This document shows, in pieces, positions 7,304 through 62,965 of a stretch of 64,000 bases of DNA. The stretch covers positions 186,001-250,000 of the forward strand of contig MEPU01000006.1 of assembly GCA_001771815.1 (NCBI GenBank). Reading direction: 5' to 3'. The position numbers and the translations under genes are program-made. Below the pieces are notes generated by a model. It was given only the letters and a program-made list of their open reading frames with translations. It made no database searches and was not told the DNA's origin. Each line of letters opens with the position of its first letter. Within the stretch, counting starts at the first letter, position 1. The DNA is from Bdellovibrionales bacterium RIFCSPHIGHO2_01_FULL_40_29. Its GTDB lineage: Bacteria > Bdellovibrionota > Bdellovibrionia > Bdellovibrionales > Bdellovibrionaceae.

Positions 7304-10087
7304 GTGTCTGCACCAGTTGTCCCGGACTATAAGAATACTATTCGTTTACCACAAACTGATTTTCCGATGAAAGGCGATTTGCCGATCAACGAACCAAAAA
7401 TTATTGCCAAGTGGGATAGCGAAAAAATATATCAACAGCTTCAGGAAAAAAATAAAAATAACCCCGGCTTTACATTACCGGACGGTCCTCCGTATGCGAA
7501 CGGCTCCATTCATATTGGCCACGCATTGAATAAATCTCTTAAAGATTTTGTAATTAAATACAAATCCATGAAAGGCTTTGCGGCTCCGTTTGTTCCGGGT
7601 TGGGATTGTCATGGCTTACCCATTGAACACAAAGTCATGAAAGACCTTGCTGACAAAAAACTTGTGAAAACAGATCAGGAAGTTTTGGCTCTATGCCGTG
7701 AAGAGGCCACCAAATGGGTCAACCATCAGCGTGAGCAATTTAAACGCCTTGGTGTATTAGCCGACTGGGAAAATCCCTATTTAACCATGTCCAAAAAATA
7801 TGAAGCCGAAGAAGTTCGTGAATTTGCAAGGGCCTTCAAGCGTGGCGTGATCTATCAAGGTGTTAAACCTGTTTATTGGAATTGGACTTTGAAAACAGCC
7901 TTAGCGGATGCCGAAGTTGAATATCATGATCACAAGTCTCCATCCATCTATGTGAAATTTAATGTCACTGATGCGACCACACTCAAAAAATTAGGCAATC
8001 CTACTGGAAAAACATCTTTTGTTATTTGGACAACAACTCCATGGACATTGCCTGCCAATGTGGGCATTTGTTTGCACCCTGATTTTGAATATGGAGTTTA
8101 TAAAACTGAAAATGAAAATTTAATCGTCGCAAAAAAATTAAAAGAAGCCTTTGAAAAAGAAGTCTCATTATCTTTAACGGAGATCAGTTCATTCAAAGGT
8201 TCCGACGTTGAATTAGGACAAGCTCGCCATCCCTTCATTGATCGCGAATCCACATTAGTTTTGGGCCTACATGTCACTGCCGAAACCGGAACAGGCTGCG
8301 TGCACACAGCCCCTGGTCATGGAGCCGACGATTTTAAAGTCGGTCAAAAGTATGGACTTCAGGTTTTATGCCCCGTGAATGATGCGGGACAATTCACCGA
8401 AGAATATCCTGAAATGCAGGGAATGAATATTTTCAAAGCCAACCCTTTGATTATTGAAAAACTCAAAACCAGCGGGCATCTGATTAAATTTTCAGAATTT
8501 GTTCATAGTTATCCGCATTGTTGGCGTTCGAAAACTCCACTCATTTTTCGAACGACGGCTCAGTGGTTTATTGGGATTGATCAAGAAGAAACTCAAATTC
8601 GCAAAAAAACTTTGAAAGTCATTGAAGATATTCAATTTTTTCCTGATTGGGGACGGGCTCGATTTCAATCGATGATGGAAAATCGTCCGGATTGGTGTTT
8701 ATCACGTCAACGCATCTGGGGCGTTCCTATTCCTATTTTAACTTGTATAGCAACTGGTGAACCGCTGGCAGATATCGAAATCATGATGCGCGCGGCAGAC
8801 ATTATCGCGGAAGGCGGGATTGAAGCTTATTACAAGACAGATATCAATGCATTAGCTGGCACCACATGGAAAAAACCAGCGAATGCAAAACCTGATTTTG
8901 GATCACAAGGATTTAAAATTGGTCGCGACATCCTGGATGTCTGGTTTGATTCTGGGGTCTGTCATGCGGCAGTTCATTCGCCAGAAGCTGGTCATGGTTA
9001 CAAAAATAAAATCGCTGATATTTATCTAGAAGGCTCAGATCAACACCGTGGTTGGTTCAACACCTCGATGTTGTCATCGATGGCCACGACTGAAAAACCT
9101 CCGTTCAAAGCCTTATTGACTCATGGATTTGTCATGGATTCTCAAGGGCGCAAAATGAGCAAATCCCTGGGAAATGTTGTTGATCCCAATGAAGTTTCAT
9201 CAAAAAGTGGATCTGAAATTATCAGACTATGGGCGGCTTATGGGGACTATGGTGGAGACATCGGTTGCGGAAAAGAAGAATTAACCCGTGTGACCGAAAC
9301 GTATCGTAAAATCAGAAATACAATGCGTTTTTTATTGGGATCAACATCAGATTTTGATATTTCAAAAGATGCGGTTTCATTTGAAAAAATGACCCAGATC
9401 GATCAGTGGATGATGCATCAGTTGAATCAATTAATAACGGATGTAACAGCAGCCTATGATAAATATGAATTTTACCGCGTCTATCATTTGCTGAACCATT
9501 TCTTTACGGTGACACTATCAGCAACTTACATGGATATTTTAAAAGACCGACTTTACACATGGAAACCAGATGGTTTACCGCGCCGAAGTTCACAAACGGC
9601 ATTATTTCATATCACGACCAACATGATTCGCATGATGGCGCCGATTCTGTCTTTTCTGGCAGAGGAAACATATTCCTATTTGAAAAGTAAAAAACAGACT
9701 TCGGTCTTTTTAGAAGATTTTCCAGTTTCAAATCCTGCCTGGGCCAATGCGGATTTAGCAACCTTGTTTGAAAAAGTCTTAGCAGTCCGAACGGATGTTC
9801 AAAAGAAACTCGAAGAACTTCGCGCGACCAAAACAATAGGCTCTAGCCTGGAAGCAAAAGTTGAAATCAGTGGAGATGCCGAGCTGTTAGCGGCACTTCA
9901 AAAAATTTCTGATCTACGTGAAGTTTTAATTGTTTCTGCTGTGAGTCTGAAAACAGGTTCTTATGCGGTGGTGGCAACTAAAGCGGATGGTGAAAAATGT
10001 GTCCGTTGCTGGGTGTATTCAGATCAAATTTCAACTGCTGAAAAAACCCCTGGGGTTTGTCCAAAATGCGTCGAGGCCCTAACGTGA
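7304..10087 (+). CDS. ileS: Isoleucyl-tRNA synthetase
   Basis: A 927-residue class I aminoacyl-tRNA synthetase that charges tRNA-Ile. The ATP-binding HIGH motif is at residues 70-73 (PYANGSIHIGHAL), KMSKS at 617-621, the editing (CP1) domain has the TTTPWTLPAN segment and the HTAPGHGADDF motif, and the C-terminus has a four-Cys zinc site (CVRCW and CPKC) as in bacterial IleRS. Length is normal for the bacterial form. The start is GTG 7304 with GAAGGAG nine bases upstream. The stop overlaps the GTG start of lspA, the common ileS-lspA arrangement of Gram-negative bacteria. No T-box leader is visible. Confidence 0.97.
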   Translation: MSAPVVPDYKNTIRLPQTDFPMKGDLPINEPKIIAKWDSEKIYQQLQEKNKNNPGFTLPDGPPYANGSIHIGHALNKSLKDFVIKYKSMKGFAAPFVPGWDCHGLPIEHKVMKDLADKKLVKTDQEVLALCREEATKWVNHQREQFKRLGVLADWENPYLTMSKKYEAEEVREFARAFKRGVIYQGVKPVYWNWTLKTALADAEVEYHDHKSPSIYVKFNVTDATTLKKLGNPTGKTSFVIWTTTPWTLPANVGICLHPDFEYGVYKTENENLIVAKKLKEAFEKEVSLSLTEISSFKGSDVELGQARHPFIDRESTLVLGLHVTAETGTGCVHTAPGHGADDFKVGQKYGLQVLCPVNDAGQFTEEYPEMQGMNIFKANPLIIEKLKTSGHLIKFSEFVHSYPHCWRSKTPLIFRTTAQWFIGIDQEETQIRKKTLKVIEDIQFFPDWGRARFQSMMENRPDWCLSRQRIWGVPIPILTCIATGEPLADIEIMMRAADIIAEGGIEAYYKTDINALAGTTWKKPANAKPDFGSQGFKIGRDILDVWFDSGVCHAAVHSPEAGHGYKNKIADIYLEGSDQHRGWFNTSMLSSMATTEKPPFKALLTHGFVMDSQGRKMSKSLGNVVDPNEVSSKSGSEIIRLWAAYGDYGGDIGCGKEELTRVTETYRKIRNTMRFLLGSTSDFDISKDAVSFEKMTQIDQWMMHQLNQLITDVTAAYDKYEFYRVYHLLNHFFTVTLSATYMDILKDRLYTWKPDGLPRRSSQTALFHITTNMIRMMAPILSFLAEETYSYLKSKKQTSVFLEDFPVSNPAWANADLATLFEKVLAVRTDVQKKLEELRATKTIGSSLEAKVEISGDAELLAALQKISDLREVLIVSAVSLKTGSYAVVATKADGEKCVRCWVYSDQISTAEKTPGVCPKCVEALT

Positions 10088-10575
10088 GTCGCAAGTACAT
10101 TTTATTGGCTTGCTTCTCGGGGTTCATAATTGCGATTGATCAGCTGACAAAAATCTATGTCCACACCCAGTTTCAGCTTCACGAATCGATTGTTGTTATC
10201 CAAAATTTTTTCAGCCTGACTTATATTCGTAATTTTGGAGCAGCTTTTGGTTTTTTAGCGCAAGCCCCTTCAGTTTTTAGAGAAGCTTTCTTTTTGATAA
10301 TGCCTCCCCTGGCTTGTGGAATTATTATTTATATTCTGCATGGCACAGATGAGCGCGATCGAAAACAGACTCTTGCATTATCGGCAATTTTTGGCGGAGC
10401 CCTTGGAAATTATCTTGATCGCCTGCAGTTTAGATACGTGATCGATTTTTTAGATTTTCATTATTTTGGAAAGTACTCTTGGCCGGCCTTTAATATTGCA
10501 GACTCAGCTATAGTTTGCGGAGTTTTTTATCTGTTGTTTCTGATGTTAACTGAAAAGAAACCTCAAAACACATGA
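10084..10575 (+). CDS. lspA: Lipoprotein signal peptidase II
   Basis: A 163-residue inner-membrane aspartyl peptidase that removes signal peptides from diacylglyceryl-modified prolipoproteins. The four-helix layout and family motifs are present: DQLTK (19-23), RNFGAAFGF (49-57), GNYLDR (108-113), and the catalytic aspartates Asp121 (VIDFLDF) and Asp140 (FNIADS), 19 residues apart as in the family. The GTG at 10084 is chosen because it overlaps the ileS stop (GTGA) and gives the usual N-terminus. It is translationally coupled to ileS upstream and to lgt downstream (ATGA overlap). The window encodes many lipoprotein clients. Confidence 0.95.
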   Translation: MSRKYILLACFSGFIIAIDQLTKIYVHTQFQLHESIVVIQNFFSLTYIRNFGAAFGFLAQAPSVFREAFFLIMPPLACGIIIYILHGTDERDRKQTLALSAIFGGALGNYLDRLQFRYVIDFLDFHYFGKYSWPAFNIADSAIVCGVFYLLFLMLTEKKPQNT

Positions 10576-43361: not shown

Positions 43362-44125
43362 CACAAACTAAAGTCGGCGCCTTTTTAGCTATTGGACTTT
43401 TTGTGCTGTTGGGCTCTATTTTCACACTTGGCTCTAATAAATCTTATTTTCAAGAGGTGTTTCTAGTTCGAGCTTACTTTGATTCCGTTCAAGGACTTAA
43501 CAAAGGCAGTTTGGTTTCTTTATCTGGTGTTAAAGTTGGTAATGTCGATGGAATTAGTTTTGATGGTGACCGAAATCTTGTTAAAGTTATTATCCGCATC
43601 GATGCTGTCTATAAAAATAAAATTCGAAAGGACAGTCGAATTGAACTAAGAACTCAAGGAGCCCTTGGAGATAAATTTTTATTTATTACTCCCGGCACGA
43701 ACATCAGTGAATTTGTTCAACATAATGACGAGATGTTAGCTGATTATGGCAATGATATTTTGTCTGTCCTGAGCAAACGGGGAAATGAGAGTGAAAAATT
43801 ATTCGATGCTATCGGTGATTTTCAAAAACTTTTACGCTCTGTGACTGATCAGAATAAAATTCCATCATTGATTGCCAAATTGGATTCAACCGCCGGCAAC
43901 TTATCCGAAGTATCACAACGTTTAAACAGCACGCTGAAAACCGGAAGCCTGGACCGTTCAATGACAAAGTTGGAACACGTCATCGATAAAATCGACAAAG
44001 GCGAAGGCACGCTGGGCGCCCTAATCAACGACAGATCCATCCACGAACGCATCAAAAACATGCTCGGAGCCGGTCAAAAAAACCAACAAATAAAACAAAT
44101 CCTAAAATCCTCCGTCGAAGACTAA
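43358..44125 (+). CDS. mlaD: MlaD-type MCE-domain protein
   Basis: A 255-residue protein with an N-terminal membrane helix (VGAFLAIGLFVLLGSIFTLG) and one MCE domain (about 40-120; VRAYFDSVQGLNKGSLVSLS, GVKVGNVDGI, RTQGALGDKFLFITPG), followed by a helical tail. It is the periplasmic lipid-binding ring subunit. No mlaC or mlaB follows; a REP-associated transposase gene abuts the 3' end, overlapping by four bases. Confidence 0.92.
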   Translation: MTQTKVGAFLAIGLFVLLGSIFTLGSNKSYFQEVFLVRAYFDSVQGLNKGSLVSLSGVKVGNVDGISFDGDRNLVKVIIRIDAVYKNKIRKDSRIELRTQGALGDKFLFITPGTNISEFVQHNDEMLADYGNDILSVLSKRGNESEKLFDAIGDFQKLLRSVTDQNKIPSLIAKLDSTAGNLSEVSQRLNSTLKTGSLDRSMTKLEHVIDKIDKGEGTLGALINDRSIHERIKNMLGAGQKNQQIKQILKSSVED

Positions 44126-44862
44126 TCGGAACTCTTACTCGAGCGTCCTTCGGCTCGCCGAGGGGTATCGGTCTCTCGGGGGTACGCGGAAGTGCAATCA
44201 CTCCAATTCTCTCCGAGGGGGTATCGGTCACCCCCCATCAACCACAGTCTTTCAAGTTGATCTCGAGACATATTCCGCGTGCGATTCTTTTGATAAGGAA
44301 TAACTCCGTTCACTTCTAGCTCATTCAACTGAATGTAATTTCGAAGAGTTAAATAGTTCTTCCACCCCCGAACAATCCGACTAAACGGACGCTGAGGCCA
44401 CAAAGCCGTAGCCATTTTAGCTCCACGCCGAGTACAACCTTGCTCCCGATCATTGGTTGGGGTATCGGTCACTCCTCTTGGTGTTTCCTTCGGAATATCA
44501 ATTTTCACTTTCAAATTTTGAGCAATCTGTCCTGCAAAAACTCGAAAAAAATGATGAAAGTTGGTTCGACGCGAGCAACGAGCCATAATATGAATATGGT
44601 TATGCTGATAACTAATCTGCTCAATCTTAACAAAAAATCTTTTGGCATATCGATTCAGCAAAAATTGCACAAACTTAAAATTTTTCGGATGTCGAAAGCT
44701 GCGGTTAAGTAAATTTTTTGGATTAATCTTAAAGACAATATGATGGGAGTGCTTTGTCGTCAGTGGCCGAGCACCTCGCCCTCGCCGATGTTTACGATAT
44801 TCTCCACCATGCACAAGACCAGAAGAGTTTTTTTGAATCAGATTTTGCTGTTTTGTTTTCAT
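44122..44862 (-). CDS. REP-associated tyrosine transposase (RAYT, Y1_Tnp family)
   Basis: A 246-residue protein of the IS200/IS605-like TnpA_REP family. The HUH metal motif is HNHIHIMARCS near residue 87-92, preceded by RYAKRFFVKIEQISYQ, and the C-terminal half carries WKNYLTLRNYIQLNELEVNG with the tyrosines expected for the nucleophile. RAYTs are single-copy, domesticated relatives of transposases that act on REP palindromes. The N-terminus (GGEYRKHRRGRGARPLTTKH) is typical of the delta-proteobacterial RAYTs. Three REP-type motifs fall within its own reading frame (GDRYPLGE, GVTDTPTN and ETDTPRRAEG are REP translations). Confidence 0.85.
   Translation of the reverse strand: MKTKQQNLIQKNSSGLVHGGEYRKHRRGRGARPLTTKHSHHIVFKINPKNLLNRSFRHPKNFKFVQFLLNRYAKRFFVKIEQISYQHNHIHIMARCSRRTNFHHFFRVFAGQIAQNLKVKIDIPKETPRGVTDTPTNDREQGCTRRGAKMATALWPQRPFSRIVRGWKNYLTLRNYIQLNELEVNGVIPYQKNRTRNMSRDQLERLWLMGGDRYPLGENWSDCTSAYPRETDTPRRAEGRSSKSSD
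44141..44180. repeat. REP-like element 1 (GGGGTATCGGTC with hairpin)
   Basis: Contains GGGGTATCGGTCTC (44162 onward) next to a hairpin in which CCTTCGG pairs with CCGAGG around CTCG (44147-44164). Same motif as the other elements listed here; it codes for the last residues of the RAYT protein. Confidence 0.6.
44211..44234. repeat. REP-like element 2 (GGGGTATCGGTCACC)
   Basis: GGGGTATCGGTCACC preceded by CTCCGAGG, in the same orientation as element 1 and inside the RAYT coding region. Confidence 0.6.
44459..44475. repeat. REP-like element 3 (GGGGTATCGGTCACTCC)
   Basis: A third copy in the same orientation, mid-gene in the RAYT. It reads as GVTDTPTN in the protein. Confidence 0.55.
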
Positions 44863-58400: not shown

Positions 58401-59540
58401 TCACTTCATTTCTGCGTTTTGATATTTTTTTAAAATTTCAACCAATTCAGAAGCCTGCTCATCTGTATTAAAAGCATGTGGTGTGATGCGAACTCCAGGT
58501 CCACGAATAGGGACTCGCACACCTTTGTCATGCAAATACTTTTGCAATTGACGATTATCACCTCTCGCCGGCGAGATACTGATAAATTGAGACGTTACAA
58601 ATGGAGAGTGCAATTTATAATTTAGCTTTTTAATTTCATTCCGAATAAGTTCTGCAATACGAAAAGCTTCATCACGCAACACTTCGGGTCCAACTTGATG
58701 GATAATTTCGACAGCTTTTCCCAGAGCGCAAATTTCTAATGTTTGCTTAGAACCGGCCTCAAATTTAAAAGCGTTTTGTTTAAAAAGACACTCCAAATCA
58801 CTGGCATCATCACACTCGCCATACGTTGATGATCCAATGGCGATAGGTTCAAATTGAATAGCCAGATCTTTTTGAATTGCCAGAAAACCCACGCCCACTG
58901 GCGCATTCAACCATTTATGACTTCCACAAGCCAATCCAGCAATTCCCAATTTCTTCATTGAAATCGGATGAATCCCCAAACTTTGACTGGCATCCACAAA
59001 AAGTAAAATATTATGATCTTTGCAGAGTTGAGATAAAGTTTCTAAATCTACAGGCATGCCCGTTTGAAATTGCACGGATGAAATCGCAATGACCCGCGTA
59101 TTTTTTGTGATACGTTTTTGAATATTTTCCAAAGAAATTTCATTTTCAGGACCTGATTTCAATAAAACCAGCTTCGCCTGAGCACGCTGGCAGGCCGATT
59201 GCCACGGATACAAGTTCGAGGCAAACTCCTGATCATACAGAATAACCTCGTCTTGGCTTTTAAGCTTCAGGCCAAAAGCAAATTGACTGATCGCCCATGC
59301 ACAACTTTGAAATAAAGCAATTTCATCAGATGCACAGTCAACCAATTGAGAAATCTGTCCCCGTGACCACGCAATTCTATTTTTATAATCATGATCCGAA
59401 TGAAATCCATCTTCATGGAAACGTTTCGACCAGTACATGATTTCCTCATGAACAGGTCGAGTGATAGGCGATAAGCCTCCGTTATTGAATTGCAAAATTC
59501 CAGAATCAAAAAATAGCTTTTTATACTCAGTTAACTTCAT
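58401..59540 (-). CDS. Class V PLP-dependent enzyme (possible sulfoxide C-S lyase)
   Basis: A 379-residue fold-type I enzyme of the aminotransferase class V family (NifS/isopenicillin-N-epimerase/EgtE relatives). PLP Asp183 in VDASQS, PLP Lys209 in GSHKWLNAPVG, and the NNGGLSPITRPV opening are visible. It overlaps the OvoA-like fusion gene by 14 bp on the same strand, downstream of it. Mycobacterial EgtE, the PLP C-S lyase of ergothioneine synthesis, belongs to this family, so this protein is a good candidate for cleaving the cysteine sulfoxide adduct made by the fusion protein. A general cysteine desulfurase or epimerase role cannot be excluded. Confidence 0.75.
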   Translation of the reverse strand: MKLTEYKKLFFDSGILQFNNGGLSPITRPVHEEIMYWSKRFHEDGFHSDHDYKNRIAWSRGQISQLVDCASDEIALFQSCAWAISQFAFGLKLKSQDEVILYDQEFASNLYPWQSACQRAQAKLVLLKSGPENEISLENIQKRITKNTRVIAISSVQFQTGMPVDLETLSQLCKDHNILLFVDASQSLGIHPISMKKLGIAGLACGSHKWLNAPVGVGFLAIQKDLAIQFEPIAIGSSTYGECDDASDLECLFKQNAFKFEAGSKQTLEICALGKAVEIIHQVGPEVLRDEAFRIAELIRNEIKKLNYKLHSPFVTSQFISISPARGDNRQLQKYLHDKGVRVPIRGPGVRITPHAFNTDEQASELVEILKKYQNAEMK

Positions 59541-62500
59541 GCATGAACTCTTTCAATTGCTGAACAAATTGCTCAATACGTTCAAAGTGTAATCGATGGC
59601 CCAACAAACAAACACGAATAATCTTTTGACCATTCACTTCACACGCTGACAAAAATAATCGATCACTATTATTGATTTTCTCAAGCAAATTTTGGGTTTT
59701 TTGATTGGAATCAAACTGACTACTGCCCGCGACAAAAAAGGACAATACCGTCAGCTGCGCCGATTGAAAAACTTGCAGCTGTGGAATTTCAGAAATTCGC
59801 TGCTGCAACCACAATGTCAGTTGAAGTTTTTCTTCAAGATTTAAAATAAAAGGCTCTATCCCCAATGTTTTAATCGGAAGCCACACACGCAGACCACGCC
59901 AGTCACGCGACAATTCAACACTGAGATCGGCATAATCCACTTGAATTCCAAACTCATCCGCTTGTGGTGGAGGCGGCATATACGAAGTCGCACTTAAAAA
60001 ATCATAAAATATATTCTTGCGGTCGCGAATCAAAAGTCCACCGGTACCATAGGGTAAACACAATGTTTTATGGGGATCAAATACCACAGAATCGGCACGC
60101 TCAATTCCACTCAGAATTTCTTTTCCTGCATCCGTCAACATAAACAATGCACCGTAGGCTCCATCCACATGAAACCATAAATTATATTTTTGAGCAATAC
60201 GGGCTAGCTCGGACAGTTCATCAACGGCTCCAGTATTGGTTGTCCCGGCGGTACCAACAACTGCAAATGGTTTTAATCCTGCTGCTAAGTCCGCGTTGAT
60301 TTGAGATTCTAATTGTGACAAATCCATCTTCAAAAGTGACGTGGTCGGAACTTTGCGAAGACTTTCTTTTGGAAATCCTAAGAAATCTAAAGCTTTTCCG
60401 ATACAGTGATGAGCCTGATCCGAACAATACACACGTCCTGAAGATAAATCATAACTCTGTAAGCGATTCTTTCGGGCCAAGGAGATTGCAGCCAGATTGG
60501 CTTGACTGCCACCACTAGTAAAATACCCAATCGCTGTTTTCTCTGGAAACTGGAACAAATTCAAAAACCAATTCACTGCCTCGGCCTCTAAGGTCACGCA
60601 TCCTGGAGCCATCATAAAATGGCCCGTGAATGGATTCAGAGTCTGTGAAATAAGTTGTGCAATATTGCTGTAGACATTCGCAGAACCCGAAGCATAGGCC
60701 GCATAACCCGGATGACCTGGCAATTGGGACAGCGGTGCCAGTTCTTCAAATATAAGCTTGAGTTGATCGGAAAGATGCTGTGGTTGGCGTGGAAAATTTT
60801 TAACTACTTGATATGGAACCTTGAAATCATCACGCACAAAGTTTTTTTGCGGATCATGAGCCGTTCCAGAAGCTTTCATATCCCCATAGTGAGAATAAAA
60901 ATCAAGAATTCTGTCTTGTGTGGCTTGAAATAAATTCTTCAAAATTTCTGGAGAAGGCTCGAGAGGTTGATCTATTTTTTTAAACCACTCGGGGCCTTTA
61001 TTCATCTGATCCAAAGCACTGGCTCGCTTAGCATGAACATAAGTCTCTGAAGAATTCAGTTTAAAAGAACCATTGTCTGCAGAACCATCCAAAGTGGCTG
61101 CTATTCGAAATCCAGAGTGTTGATAAAAATGGGGCCGAAAATGAAATCGAGCCCAGCGACTGGCCTCGTGACCACAACTGATGAACGAACCACCTGCAAT
61201 CATGTTGTGTTTGCCATCAAAACAGGGTGTTGAAAAATCGTCATACAGAGAATGAACTTTAAAATGGGTTAATGGATTAAATTGATCTTCAAGTAAATGC
61301 CAGACATTTCCACAGGGAGTCTCATCAACAGGTGTCGGCGATGACCAATGAAAATTAAAATTTATTTCTGAAATCGATTGCGGTGCTGAATACGAGGTTT
61401 GTTGCAGAACAGGATCACCGTTGTATTTTTGCTGCGAAGCGAATTCGCCCTCGGTGAGTAGTCGATACTTTAGTTTTGAATTGTCTTTTTTTTGCTTCCA
61501 CTGACAGTATGCCTTGGCTTCATGATGATTGACCTCGACAGGCCAATCCCAAGGCATGGCTATGACTTCGAAAACAGTCCGCAATTTATATTCATGCAAT
61601 CCTTCGGGACCCGAAGCCATCCAAAAAGTGGGACGCTTCGTATTTCTAAATTTTCTCCACTGCATGCCTTCGGCTGTCCAGAATTCATCCAGACAGTAGT
61701 CGCCAGATTTAACGAACTCGAAATATTCGCCGTTGGTCACCATCGTTTTTGAAACTTGAAACTCTTTGAGCTCAATTTTACGAAATCCATATTCATTATC
61801 CCAACCAAATGATTTTTCAGTTTCAGATTTACCCAGCACAACTGTCTGAGCCTTATTCTGAATCCAGGTCAATTCTGAAAAATCATCTCCCATTTTAGGA
61901 AATAAATTTTTCTGGGACTGACTGCTGGAATGCAAAGGCGCCCAGTAGCGAGGAGTTTCAACCAATTCAACAGGCAGCTCCCGAATCAATACGGACGATG
62001 TTTCAAAATGAATTTTTTCATGTTCGAAGCCCATCCACAAAGCCCAAAGTGGATGATCCATTTGATTTTTTGAAATCGAATCCAAATCAGCATGAGACAA
62101 AATTAAGTTGCGAACTAAATTGTAAACTTTTTTACGATAGGCATGCACTTCTGCGACGGTGGGCCAAATCATTTCATTTTTAGAAAGGTCGTCCCAACTC
62201 ATTTCATCGACGCCCGTTTCTAAAACTTTTTCCAAGTACAAATCAATTGGTTTTTCGACCAATCCAGCAAGTCGCAACTTATTCACAAAAAGCACAGCCG
62301 TATGCCCATAATAAAAAATCAAGGGATGCCGCAATTGATGATACGGAGGTCGAATGTACGTGTCTTCCGATTTAAGGCTTTGAAAAAGAAGCTCAGTCAG
62401 CGTCCAGGTATTATTAAAATAATCCAAAACATCTTGCCGTGAAGCCACTTGAAAATTTAATAGGGGAAGCGCCCGCAAACATTGATAGTCGCGGTCAAAT

Positions 62501-62628
62501 CCACAACACGCTTCCGGAGACAATCCGGTCCACCAGGACTGTCCAAATTTCTGCTGAACACTGTTCTTCAAATTATTCTCTCTAAGAGGAGCTGTAAGAT
62601 TTGGATTTCGAGTAATTGTAACTGTCAT
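59527..62628 (-). CDS. OvoA-like sulfoxide synthase fused to a PLP decarboxylase
   Basis: A 1033-residue two-part protein. Residues 30-515 match the 5-histidylcysteine sulfoxide synthase part of OvoA: WWTG near 32, a DinB-like helical domain with iron-ligand His109 (FYYGHTAVLF) and the HEKIH pair His203/His207, then a formylglycine-enzyme-like domain (about 270-510; NGEYFEFVKSGDY, NVWHLLEDQF, AGGSFISCGHEASRWARFHF, HSGFRIA). Residues 560-1033 are a group II PLP decarboxylase: FTSGGSQANLAA near 705, HVDGAYG (Asp822) and the PLP Lys854 in DPHKTLCLPYGTGG. In known OvoA the second part is a methyltransferase. Start is ATG 62628; promoter hexamers suggest a leaderless transcript. Followed in operon by the class V PLP enzyme. 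Confidence 0.85.
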   Translation of the reverse strand: MTVTITRNPNLTAPLRENNLKNSVQQKFGQSWWTGLSPEACCGFDRDYQCLRALPLLNFQVASRQDVLDYFNNTWTLTELLFQSLKSEDTYIRPPYHQLRHPLIFYYGHTAVLFVNKLRLAGLVEKPIDLYLEKVLETGVDEMSWDDLSKNEMIWPTVAEVHAYRKKVYNLVRNLILSHADLDSISKNQMDHPLWALWMGFEHEKIHFETSSVLIRELPVELVETPRYWAPLHSSSQSQKNLFPKMGDDFSELTWIQNKAQTVVLGKSETEKSFGWDNEYGFRKIELKEFQVSKTMVTNGEYFEFVKSGDYCLDEFWTAEGMQWRKFRNTKRPTFWMASGPEGLHEYKLRTVFEVIAMPWDWPVEVNHHEAKAYCQWKQKKDNSKLKYRLLTEGEFASQQKYNGDPVLQQTSYSAPQSISEINFNFHWSSPTPVDETPCGNVWHLLEDQFNPLTHFKVHSLYDDFSTPCFDGKHNMIAGGSFISCGHEASRWARFHFRPHFYQHSGFRIAATLDGSADNGSFKLNSSETYVHAKRASALDQMNKGPEWFKKIDQPLEPSPEILKNLFQATQDRILDFYSHYGDMKASGTAHDPQKNFVRDDFKVPYQVVKNFPRQPQHLSDQLKLIFEELAPLSQLPGHPGYAAYASGSANVYSNIAQLISQTLNPFTGHFMMAPGCVTLEAEAVNWFLNLFQFPEKTAIGYFTSGGSQANLAAISLARKNRLQSYDLSSGRVYCSDQAHHCIGKALDFLGFPKESLRKVPTTSLLKMDLSQLESQINADLAAGLKPFAVVGTAGTTNTGAVDELSELARIAQKYNLWFHVDGAYGALFMLTDAGKEILSGIERADSVVFDPHKTLCLPYGTGGLLIRDRKNIFYDFLSATSYMPPPPQADEFGIQVDYADLSVELSRDWRGLRVWLPIKTLGIEPFILNLEEKLQLTLWLQQRISEIPQLQVFQSAQLTVLSFFVAGSSQFDSNQKTQNLLEKINNSDRLFLSACEVNGQKIIRVCLLGHRLHFERIEQFVQQLKEFMHEVN

Positions 62629-62857: not shown

Positions 62858-62965
62858 ATGAGTTCGAGTGGGTTTGTATATAAAAAGCGTAATTATTTCG
62901 ATAAGTTAAATATCACAATCTGGTTTGTGCAACTCCTGATTAGCTATATCGTGGCTTTAAGTTAA
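62858..62965 (+). CDS. Small membrane peptide (35 aa)
   Basis: ATG 62858 has a textbook AAAGGAGA seven bases upstream, a much stronger site than most genes in the window. The 35 residues are a polar start (MSSSGFVYKKRNYFDK) and a hydrophobic segment (LNITIWFVQLLISYIVAL), predicting a single-pass membrane peptide with a cytosolic basic head. Nothing in the sequence tells whether it is a toxin, a regulator or a subunit of something else. The gene otherwise fills a 397-bp gap between the OvoA-like gene and pabA, and a GC-rich hairpin without a T run follows (62970-62996). Confidence 0.6.
   Translation: MSSSGFVYKKRNYFDKLNITIWFVQLLISYIVALS

Follow-up and report, generated by a model that had tools for sequence, protein, structure and literature searches.

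In the ovothiol A pathway of the Erwinia tasmaniensis type (OvoA/OvoB/OvoC), the methyltransferase that is fused to the sulfoxide synthase OvoA works on 5-thiohistidine, after the C-S lyase (PMC12631010). Ovothiol was long taken to be the only outcome of this intermediate, until an N-acetyl derivative was added in 2025 with the 5THNAT branch of Proteiniphilum; up to then, as that study states, no enzyme was known that makes any other derivative of 5-thiohistidine (PMC12631010). Bacterial OvoA proteins without a methyltransferase have been mentioned, and fusions of OvoA to the C-S lyase OvoB have been reported in hydrozoans (PMC9103826). Here, we describe a gene of Bdellovibrionales bacterium RIFCSPHIGHO2_01_FULL_40_29 in which an OvoA-type sulfoxide synthase is fused to a group II pyridoxal phosphate (PLP) decarboxylase. 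The gene lies in a stretch of 64,000 nucleotides of contig MEPU01000006.1 (positions 186,001 to 250,000 of the forward strand), which we refer to as the window and whose first letter is position 1 of the coordinates below. With moderate confidence, we propose from the sequences that this gene and the class V PLP gene downstream of it make up an operon that yields a decarboxylated 5-thiohistidine, most likely 5-thiohistamine, in place of ovothiol A.

The locus shares several features with the Erwinia-type pathway: the iron ligands and the tyrosine matching Tyr417 are identical, a PLP gene follows downstream, and the sulfoxide synthase carries a C-terminal tailoring domain. However, this domain is a group II PLP decarboxylase here and a TIGR04345 methyltransferase there, and the downstream PLP protein is of class V rather than class I/II. 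As in Proteiniphilum, a diversification of 5-thiohistidine would be encoded together with ovoA; in that branch a separate GNAT enzyme acetylates and the methyltransferase is kept, whereas here a fused PLP domain would decarboxylate. The hydrozoan proteins likewise join OvoA to a PLP enzyme, but there the partner is OvoB, a C-S lyase from a different PLP family, while in our locus the decarboxylase is fused and the lyase candidate is separate. Fusion of OvoA to a PLP enzyme is not new as such, but a decarboxylase as the fused partner seems to be.

The fusion gene (59527-62628, minus strand, as are all features of the two genes given below) is a single uninterrupted open reading frame (ORF) of 1033 codons. 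Its N-terminal part (aa 62-509, 61102-62445), which combines DinB_2 and FGE-sulfatase folds, was matched by hmmscan to TIGR04344 (ovoA_Nterm) at 560 bits (cut-off 400; E 3.7e-168), and by phmmer to the OvoA structure 8khq (aa 64-512, 1e-99). The equivalog models for EgtB (119.9 against 360 bits) and SenA (122.4 against 420 bits) both stayed under their cut-offs. In the alignment, aa 510-612 (60793-61101) form a linker and the N-terminal helices ahead of the decarboxylase. The complete decarboxylase domain that follows (aa 613-1030, 59539-60792) was recognized by its predicted fold and by PF00282 (Pyridoxal_deC; hmmscan, aa 613-964, 176.5 bits against a cut-off of 27, E 8.7e-52), which stands where a TIGR04345 methyltransferase domain would be sought and was not found. 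Tryptophan decarboxylase of Ruminococcus gnavus (4obu) was matched over aa 635-1030 (phmmer, 1.5e-67), and the same enzyme (4obv/4obu) was the best hit of the predicted fold, in a comparison of the whole fusion model that covered the decarboxylase part only (Z 40.6, root-mean-square deviation 2.3, 342 residues). A fusion of OvoA with OvoB was rejected by family, as the domain belongs to PF00282 and not to PF00155.

The catalytic residues of the sulfoxide synthase half are retained. His109 (62302-62304), the first of three histidine iron ligands, is unchanged across 19 fusions and 77 OvoA proteins of the methyltransferase type, and the HX3HXE motif of iron ligands, His203-His207-Glu209 (62002-62022), is invariant in all 96 aligned OvoA sequences. 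Mutation of the equivalent residues in Erwinia OvoA (His170, His174, and Glu176) lowers activity about 100-fold (PMC9103826). Tyr462 (61243-61245), also invariant, corresponds to Tyr417 of Erwinia tasmaniensis OvoA (PMC10903977) by its spacing to the glutamate of HX3HXE; in Erwinia psidii and Pantoea the two lie 241 residues apart, as do residues 417 and 176. Overall, 83 of the 89 positions that are near-invariant in the methyltransferase-type proteins are kept in all 19 fusions, and just four residues of the OvoA domain are specific to the fusions.

For the other half, residues were placed by aligning 17 fusions with human DOPA decarboxylase (DDC), and every one of the following is present in all 17: Lys854 (60067-60069), the lysine that forms the Schiff base with PLP (DDC Lys303); Asp822 (60163-60165), the partner of the PLP pyridine nitrogen (DDC Asp271); His740 (60409-60411), which stacks on PLP (DDC His192); Thr797 (DDC Thr246); and Tyr883 (59980-59982), the catalytic-loop tyrosine (DDC Tyr332, Tyr334 of histidine decarboxylase, HDC). 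A position that varies between tyrosine and phenylalanine, 899, aligns with DDC 346 and is not the catalytic tyrosine. In the group II family, the catalytic-loop tyrosine marks true decarboxylation over aldehyde synthesis. A histidine rather than an asparagine at the position of DDC His192 also favors a decarboxylase over an aldehyde synthase (PMC6494836). With the equivalents of both Tyr332 and His192 retained, an aldehyde synthase is disfavored.

The substrate-specificity position is also fixed in the 17 fusions, as Ser907 (59908-59910), which aligns with Ser354 of HDC and Gly354 of DDC; the sequences in the Protein Data Bank have serine in human HDC and glycine in human DDC. Ser354 of HDC is reported to determine histidine specificity, according to the citation of Komori 2012 in PMC10570526. 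Ser907 is therefore suggestive of a histidine-like specificity, although one residue is no proof of membership in the animal-type histidine decarboxylases. Taken together, the domain has the fold and all catalytic residues of the R. gnavus tryptophan decarboxylase, human HDC, and DDC, with serine at the HDC specificity position, and differs from them in its fusion to OvoA and in its identity of 24-32%.

Directly downstream, and overlapping the fusion gene by 14 nucleotides, lies a gene (58401-59540) for a 379-aa protein that is firmly assigned to the class V PLP enzymes (PF00266, 1.9e-45). The earlier note on this stretch, made from its letters, had described an OvoA-type sulfoxide synthase fused to a group II PLP decarboxylase with intact aspartate and lysine residues and linked to a class V PLP gene; all three elements were borne out by the profile and structure matches and by the alignment of D822 and K854 with human DDC. 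The pathway that the note proposed, toward a decarboxylated 5-thiohistidine, largely fits these results. The predicted fold of the class V protein matches SufS and the cystine lyase C-DES (Z 41-42). The SufS model stayed under its cut-off (127.7 against 475.1 bits), and in the profile alignment the desulfurase loop with the catalytic cysteine has no counterpart; the sole invariant cysteines among 17 aligned sequences are C69, C243, and C251. A cysteine desulfurase was therefore rejected, leaving a lyase-type class V enzyme. As a separate observation, C243 and C251 (CDD...C) lie in a loop just ahead of the KFEAGS motif and might handle a sulfenic acid product.

The position of this gene points to a role as C-S lyase. 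Ordinary OvoA-methyltransferase genes of the same phylum have a class I/II PLP protein (OvoB-like) in the same downstream place, with PF00155 as the main match in the neighboring OvoB-like genes (L052-L055) and not PF00266 as here, and at two further loci (L056 and L057) an ordinary-type OvoA precedes a GNAT gene and a further class V protein. The recurrence of PLP proteins downstream of ordinary OvoA suggests that this slot is the slot of the C-S lyase, an activity that the class V protein may thus share. At E <= 1e-166, orthologs of the class V protein came up in 17 genomes and no others, every one of which also has the fusion (intact in 16, a broken copy in one); in the 18th fusion genome (G208) the gene is cut by the contig end.

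When the fusion and the gene pair were sought in 291 Bdellovibrionota genomes, TIGR04344 exceeded its cut-off in 25, of which 17 carried the PLP fusion intact and 8 an ordinary methyltransferase type, while one more genome (G173) held a broken fusion copy. The fusion is present on the complete chromosome of Bdellovibrio sp. qaytius as well as in Pseudobdellovibrio and Bacteriovoracaceae, and the proteins are about 52-70% identical overall to the window protein, with invariant catalytic residues. An artifact of assembly, annotation, or chance was rejected, since the fusion occurs in 17 genomes, one of them a complete chromosome. The class V gene directly follows the fusion in 18 of 18 loci, overlapping it or at most 8 nucleotides away; no third conserved operon gene was found beside the pair at these loci. 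For the decarboxylase domain, orthologs with more than 50% identity turned up in fusion genomes only, and the closest protein that stands alone shares 38% identity. Outside Bdellovibrionota, no fusion was found among the best 80 of 559 relatives retrieved with two exact peptide patterns, a search that may miss some. In the broken copy (L048:7818-12464, the same place as L082), a transposase ORF (8810-10126, minus strand) interrupts the gene, a short stretch of which is repeated on both sides of the transposase, and a second break lies near aa 603-630.

When 66 OvoA domains were placed in a maximum-likelihood tree, all 19 fusions formed one clade (support 100/100), whose sister (94/88) is an OvoA-methyltransferase from a further member of this bacterial family (L049). 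This group is nested among methyltransferase-bearing OvoA proteins from cyanobacteria, Planctomycetota, Actinomycetota, and Gammaproteobacteria, and among the best 80 of the 559 relatives the proteins from outside Bdellovibrionota that were checked carry the methyltransferase, truncated sequences aside. The simplest history consistent with these sequences would be a single replacement of the methyltransferase by the decarboxylase in one lineage. Some members of the phylum show other variants. The sister gene (L049:7977-10148, G154, Bdellovibrionaceae) has an intact methyltransferase and no adjoining PLP lyase gene. At L056:3324-7047 (G096) and L057:3735-7443 (G230), the methyltransferase domain scores under its cut-off (114 and 86 against 170 bits), and overlapping genes for a GNAT acetyltransferase and a class V PLP protein follow OvoA; this arrangement resembles a branch for N-acetylation of 5-thiohistidine in which methylation is being lost.

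The domain content, the conservation of residues and operon, the one-time domain replacement, and the lack of the ovothiol methyltransferase family in fusion genomes were read directly from the data. From these we infer what each enzyme catalyzes, in what order, and what is made; the order is the least certain of the three. In the proposed pathway, the OvoA domain would use non-heme iron and O2 to couple histidine and cysteine, giving 5-histidylcysteine sulfoxide. Taking the place of OvoB, the class V PLP protein would then act as C-S lyase and release pyruvate and ammonia, and the resulting sulfenic acid would be reduced to 5-thiohistidine. The sulfenic acid is assumed here; the ergothioneine lyase EgtE has such an intermediate, which requires a thiol reductant (PMC4493562). 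Finally, the fused decarboxylase, in the place of the methyltransferase and on the same intermediate, would yield 5-thiohistamine, the 5-thiol of histamine, rather than ovothiol A. That the methyltransferase acts after the lyase in the known pathway suggests that the decarboxylase replacing it does so too. Supporting a different end product, TIGR04345 was over its cut-off in none of the 18 fusion genomes, where the best matches were generic and reached about 40 bits at most against 170, so that ordinary ovothiol made by the known enzyme is not expected.

Several observations weigh against this proposal. With the nearest solved structure, that of the tryptophan decarboxylase, the decarboxylase domain shares only about 32% identity, and the equivalog model for histidine decarboxylase of the bacterial PLP type (NF002748) scored far under its cut-off (82.5 against 305 bits), so that the sequence does not fix the substrate of the PLP domain. 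The structure model of the whole fusion is poor, with a mean predicted local distance difference test score (pLDDT) of 63, although most of the decarboxylase core reaches 80-95. The class V protein resembles the ergothioneine lyases EgtE and Egt2 in its class V PLP fold and as the partner of a sulfoxide synthase, but with 47 against 400 bits for the EgtE model (TIGR04343) it is not an EgtE ortholog; no EgtE sequence for a residue alignment was over the cut-off in the two genomes tried. In addition, relatives of the class V protein with about 30-35% identity occur in genomes without the fusion. Together with the missed EgtE cut-off, this means that the lyase role is read from the position of the gene. 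These relatives share no common neighborhood widely, which suggests that the enzyme was probably recruited to the locus. Two sister class V genes, in genomes without an OvoA fusion, adjoin a CysQ/inositol-phosphatase-like gene (L162:6590-8968 and L172:420-2404). Finally, OvoA takes histamine in vitro (PMC9103826), so that decarboxylation could come first.

The order of steps is where the proposal meets its closest competitor. The same enzymes could give the same end product if the fused domain decarboxylated the histidyl moiety of the cysteine-linked sulfoxide and the class V lyase acted last. Having synthase and decarboxylase in one chain would favor channeling of the sulfoxide, and the arrangement of the fusion with a separate lyase gene is constant. 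However, the C-terminal domain of ordinary OvoA acts after the lyase (PMC12631010), and the sulfoxide, with its two amino-acid ends, exceeds in bulk the substrates known for group II enzymes. We regard this order as unlikely, though worth keeping in mind. If histidine were instead decarboxylated before anything else, the OvoA domain would join histamine to cysteine and the lyase would then yield 5-thiohistamine. The in vitro use of histamine would allow this, and Ser907 occupies the position that makes human HDC specific for histidine. On the other hand, the near-complete retention of OvoA positions, with so few residues specific to the fusions, shows no clear adaptation to a substrate lacking the carboxylate, and a free histidine decarboxylase would drain histidine; we consider this order improbable.

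Two other explanations part from the preferred pathway in what the PLP domain does. PLP folds readily switch reaction type, and in light of the hydrozoan OvoA-OvoB fusions the domain could have been repurposed as a C-S lyase, a fused OvoB substitute, with the class V gene doing something else and 5-thiohistidine or a derivative as the product. Yet OvoB-like genes belong to class I/II (PF00155) and the fused domain to PF00282, the equivalents of Tyr332, His192, and Thr246 are invariant and would be needless in a lyase, and a separate lyase-type class V gene always adjoins, all of which makes such a switch very improbable. We give hardly any credence to a decarboxylase whose substrate is some unrelated amino acid (Trp, Tyr, diaminobutyrate [Dab], or the cysteine moiety) in a fusion that only co-regulates two activities, for although its nearest solved relative is a tryptophan decarboxylase and the sequence does not settle its substrate, the domain replaced the tailoring domain of the pathway in one event, has been kept since together with the lyase gene, and has its close orthologs in fusion genomes only.

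The decarboxylation of 5-thiohistidine to 5-thiohistamine thus stands as our preferred pathway, and its status as undescribed is provisional. The earlier note had known of no described pathway with this domain order, which is consistent with the open-access literature, a body that leaves out most subscription papers and all preprints: within it we found no thiohistamine, no 5-thiohistidine decarboxylation, and no OvoA-decarboxylase pathway. The only related compound there was 2-mercaptohistamine, a chemical in the title of a reference, and no structure paper on OvoA or EgtB-IV was found in the same literature with the phrases used.

Around the two genes, Rfam gave no RNA element at the fusion locus, a promoter and terminator scan gave no site worth naming, and no relative was found in viral contigs. 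Between the divergent genes lies an unlisted 35-aa ORF (62858-62965, plus strand) with a strong ribosome-binding site (AAAGGAG). It is conserved at locus L042 (MSS.GFV.KK.NYFDKLN..IWF.QLLISY..ALS) and probably encodes a small membrane protein. Elsewhere in the window, an ORF at 44122-44862 (minus strand), beside genes for an mce-type ABC transporter, resembles a REP-associated (Y1) transposase, as judged by eye.

By analogy with ovothiol, the product of the pathway would probably be a redox-active cytoplasmic thiol. In the window genome, no EgtD, GshB, or glutamate-cysteine ligase (two families) was found, hence none of the genes sought for making glutathione or ergothioneine, and no BshA was over its cut-off, so that a role as a main thiol of the cell is possible. 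It is a tentative and rather doubtful step further that many Bdellovibrionota both make 5-thiohistamine by a domain-swapped ovothiol pathway and use it as a main cytoplasmic thiol of predators that lack glutathione, bacillithiol, and ergothioneine. If the proposal holds, it would mean that thiohistamine, a histamine analog, can be made enzymatically in nature, and this conserved decarboxylating branch would add a new kind of thiol amine among the low-molecular-weight thiols of predatory bacteria, about which little is known.

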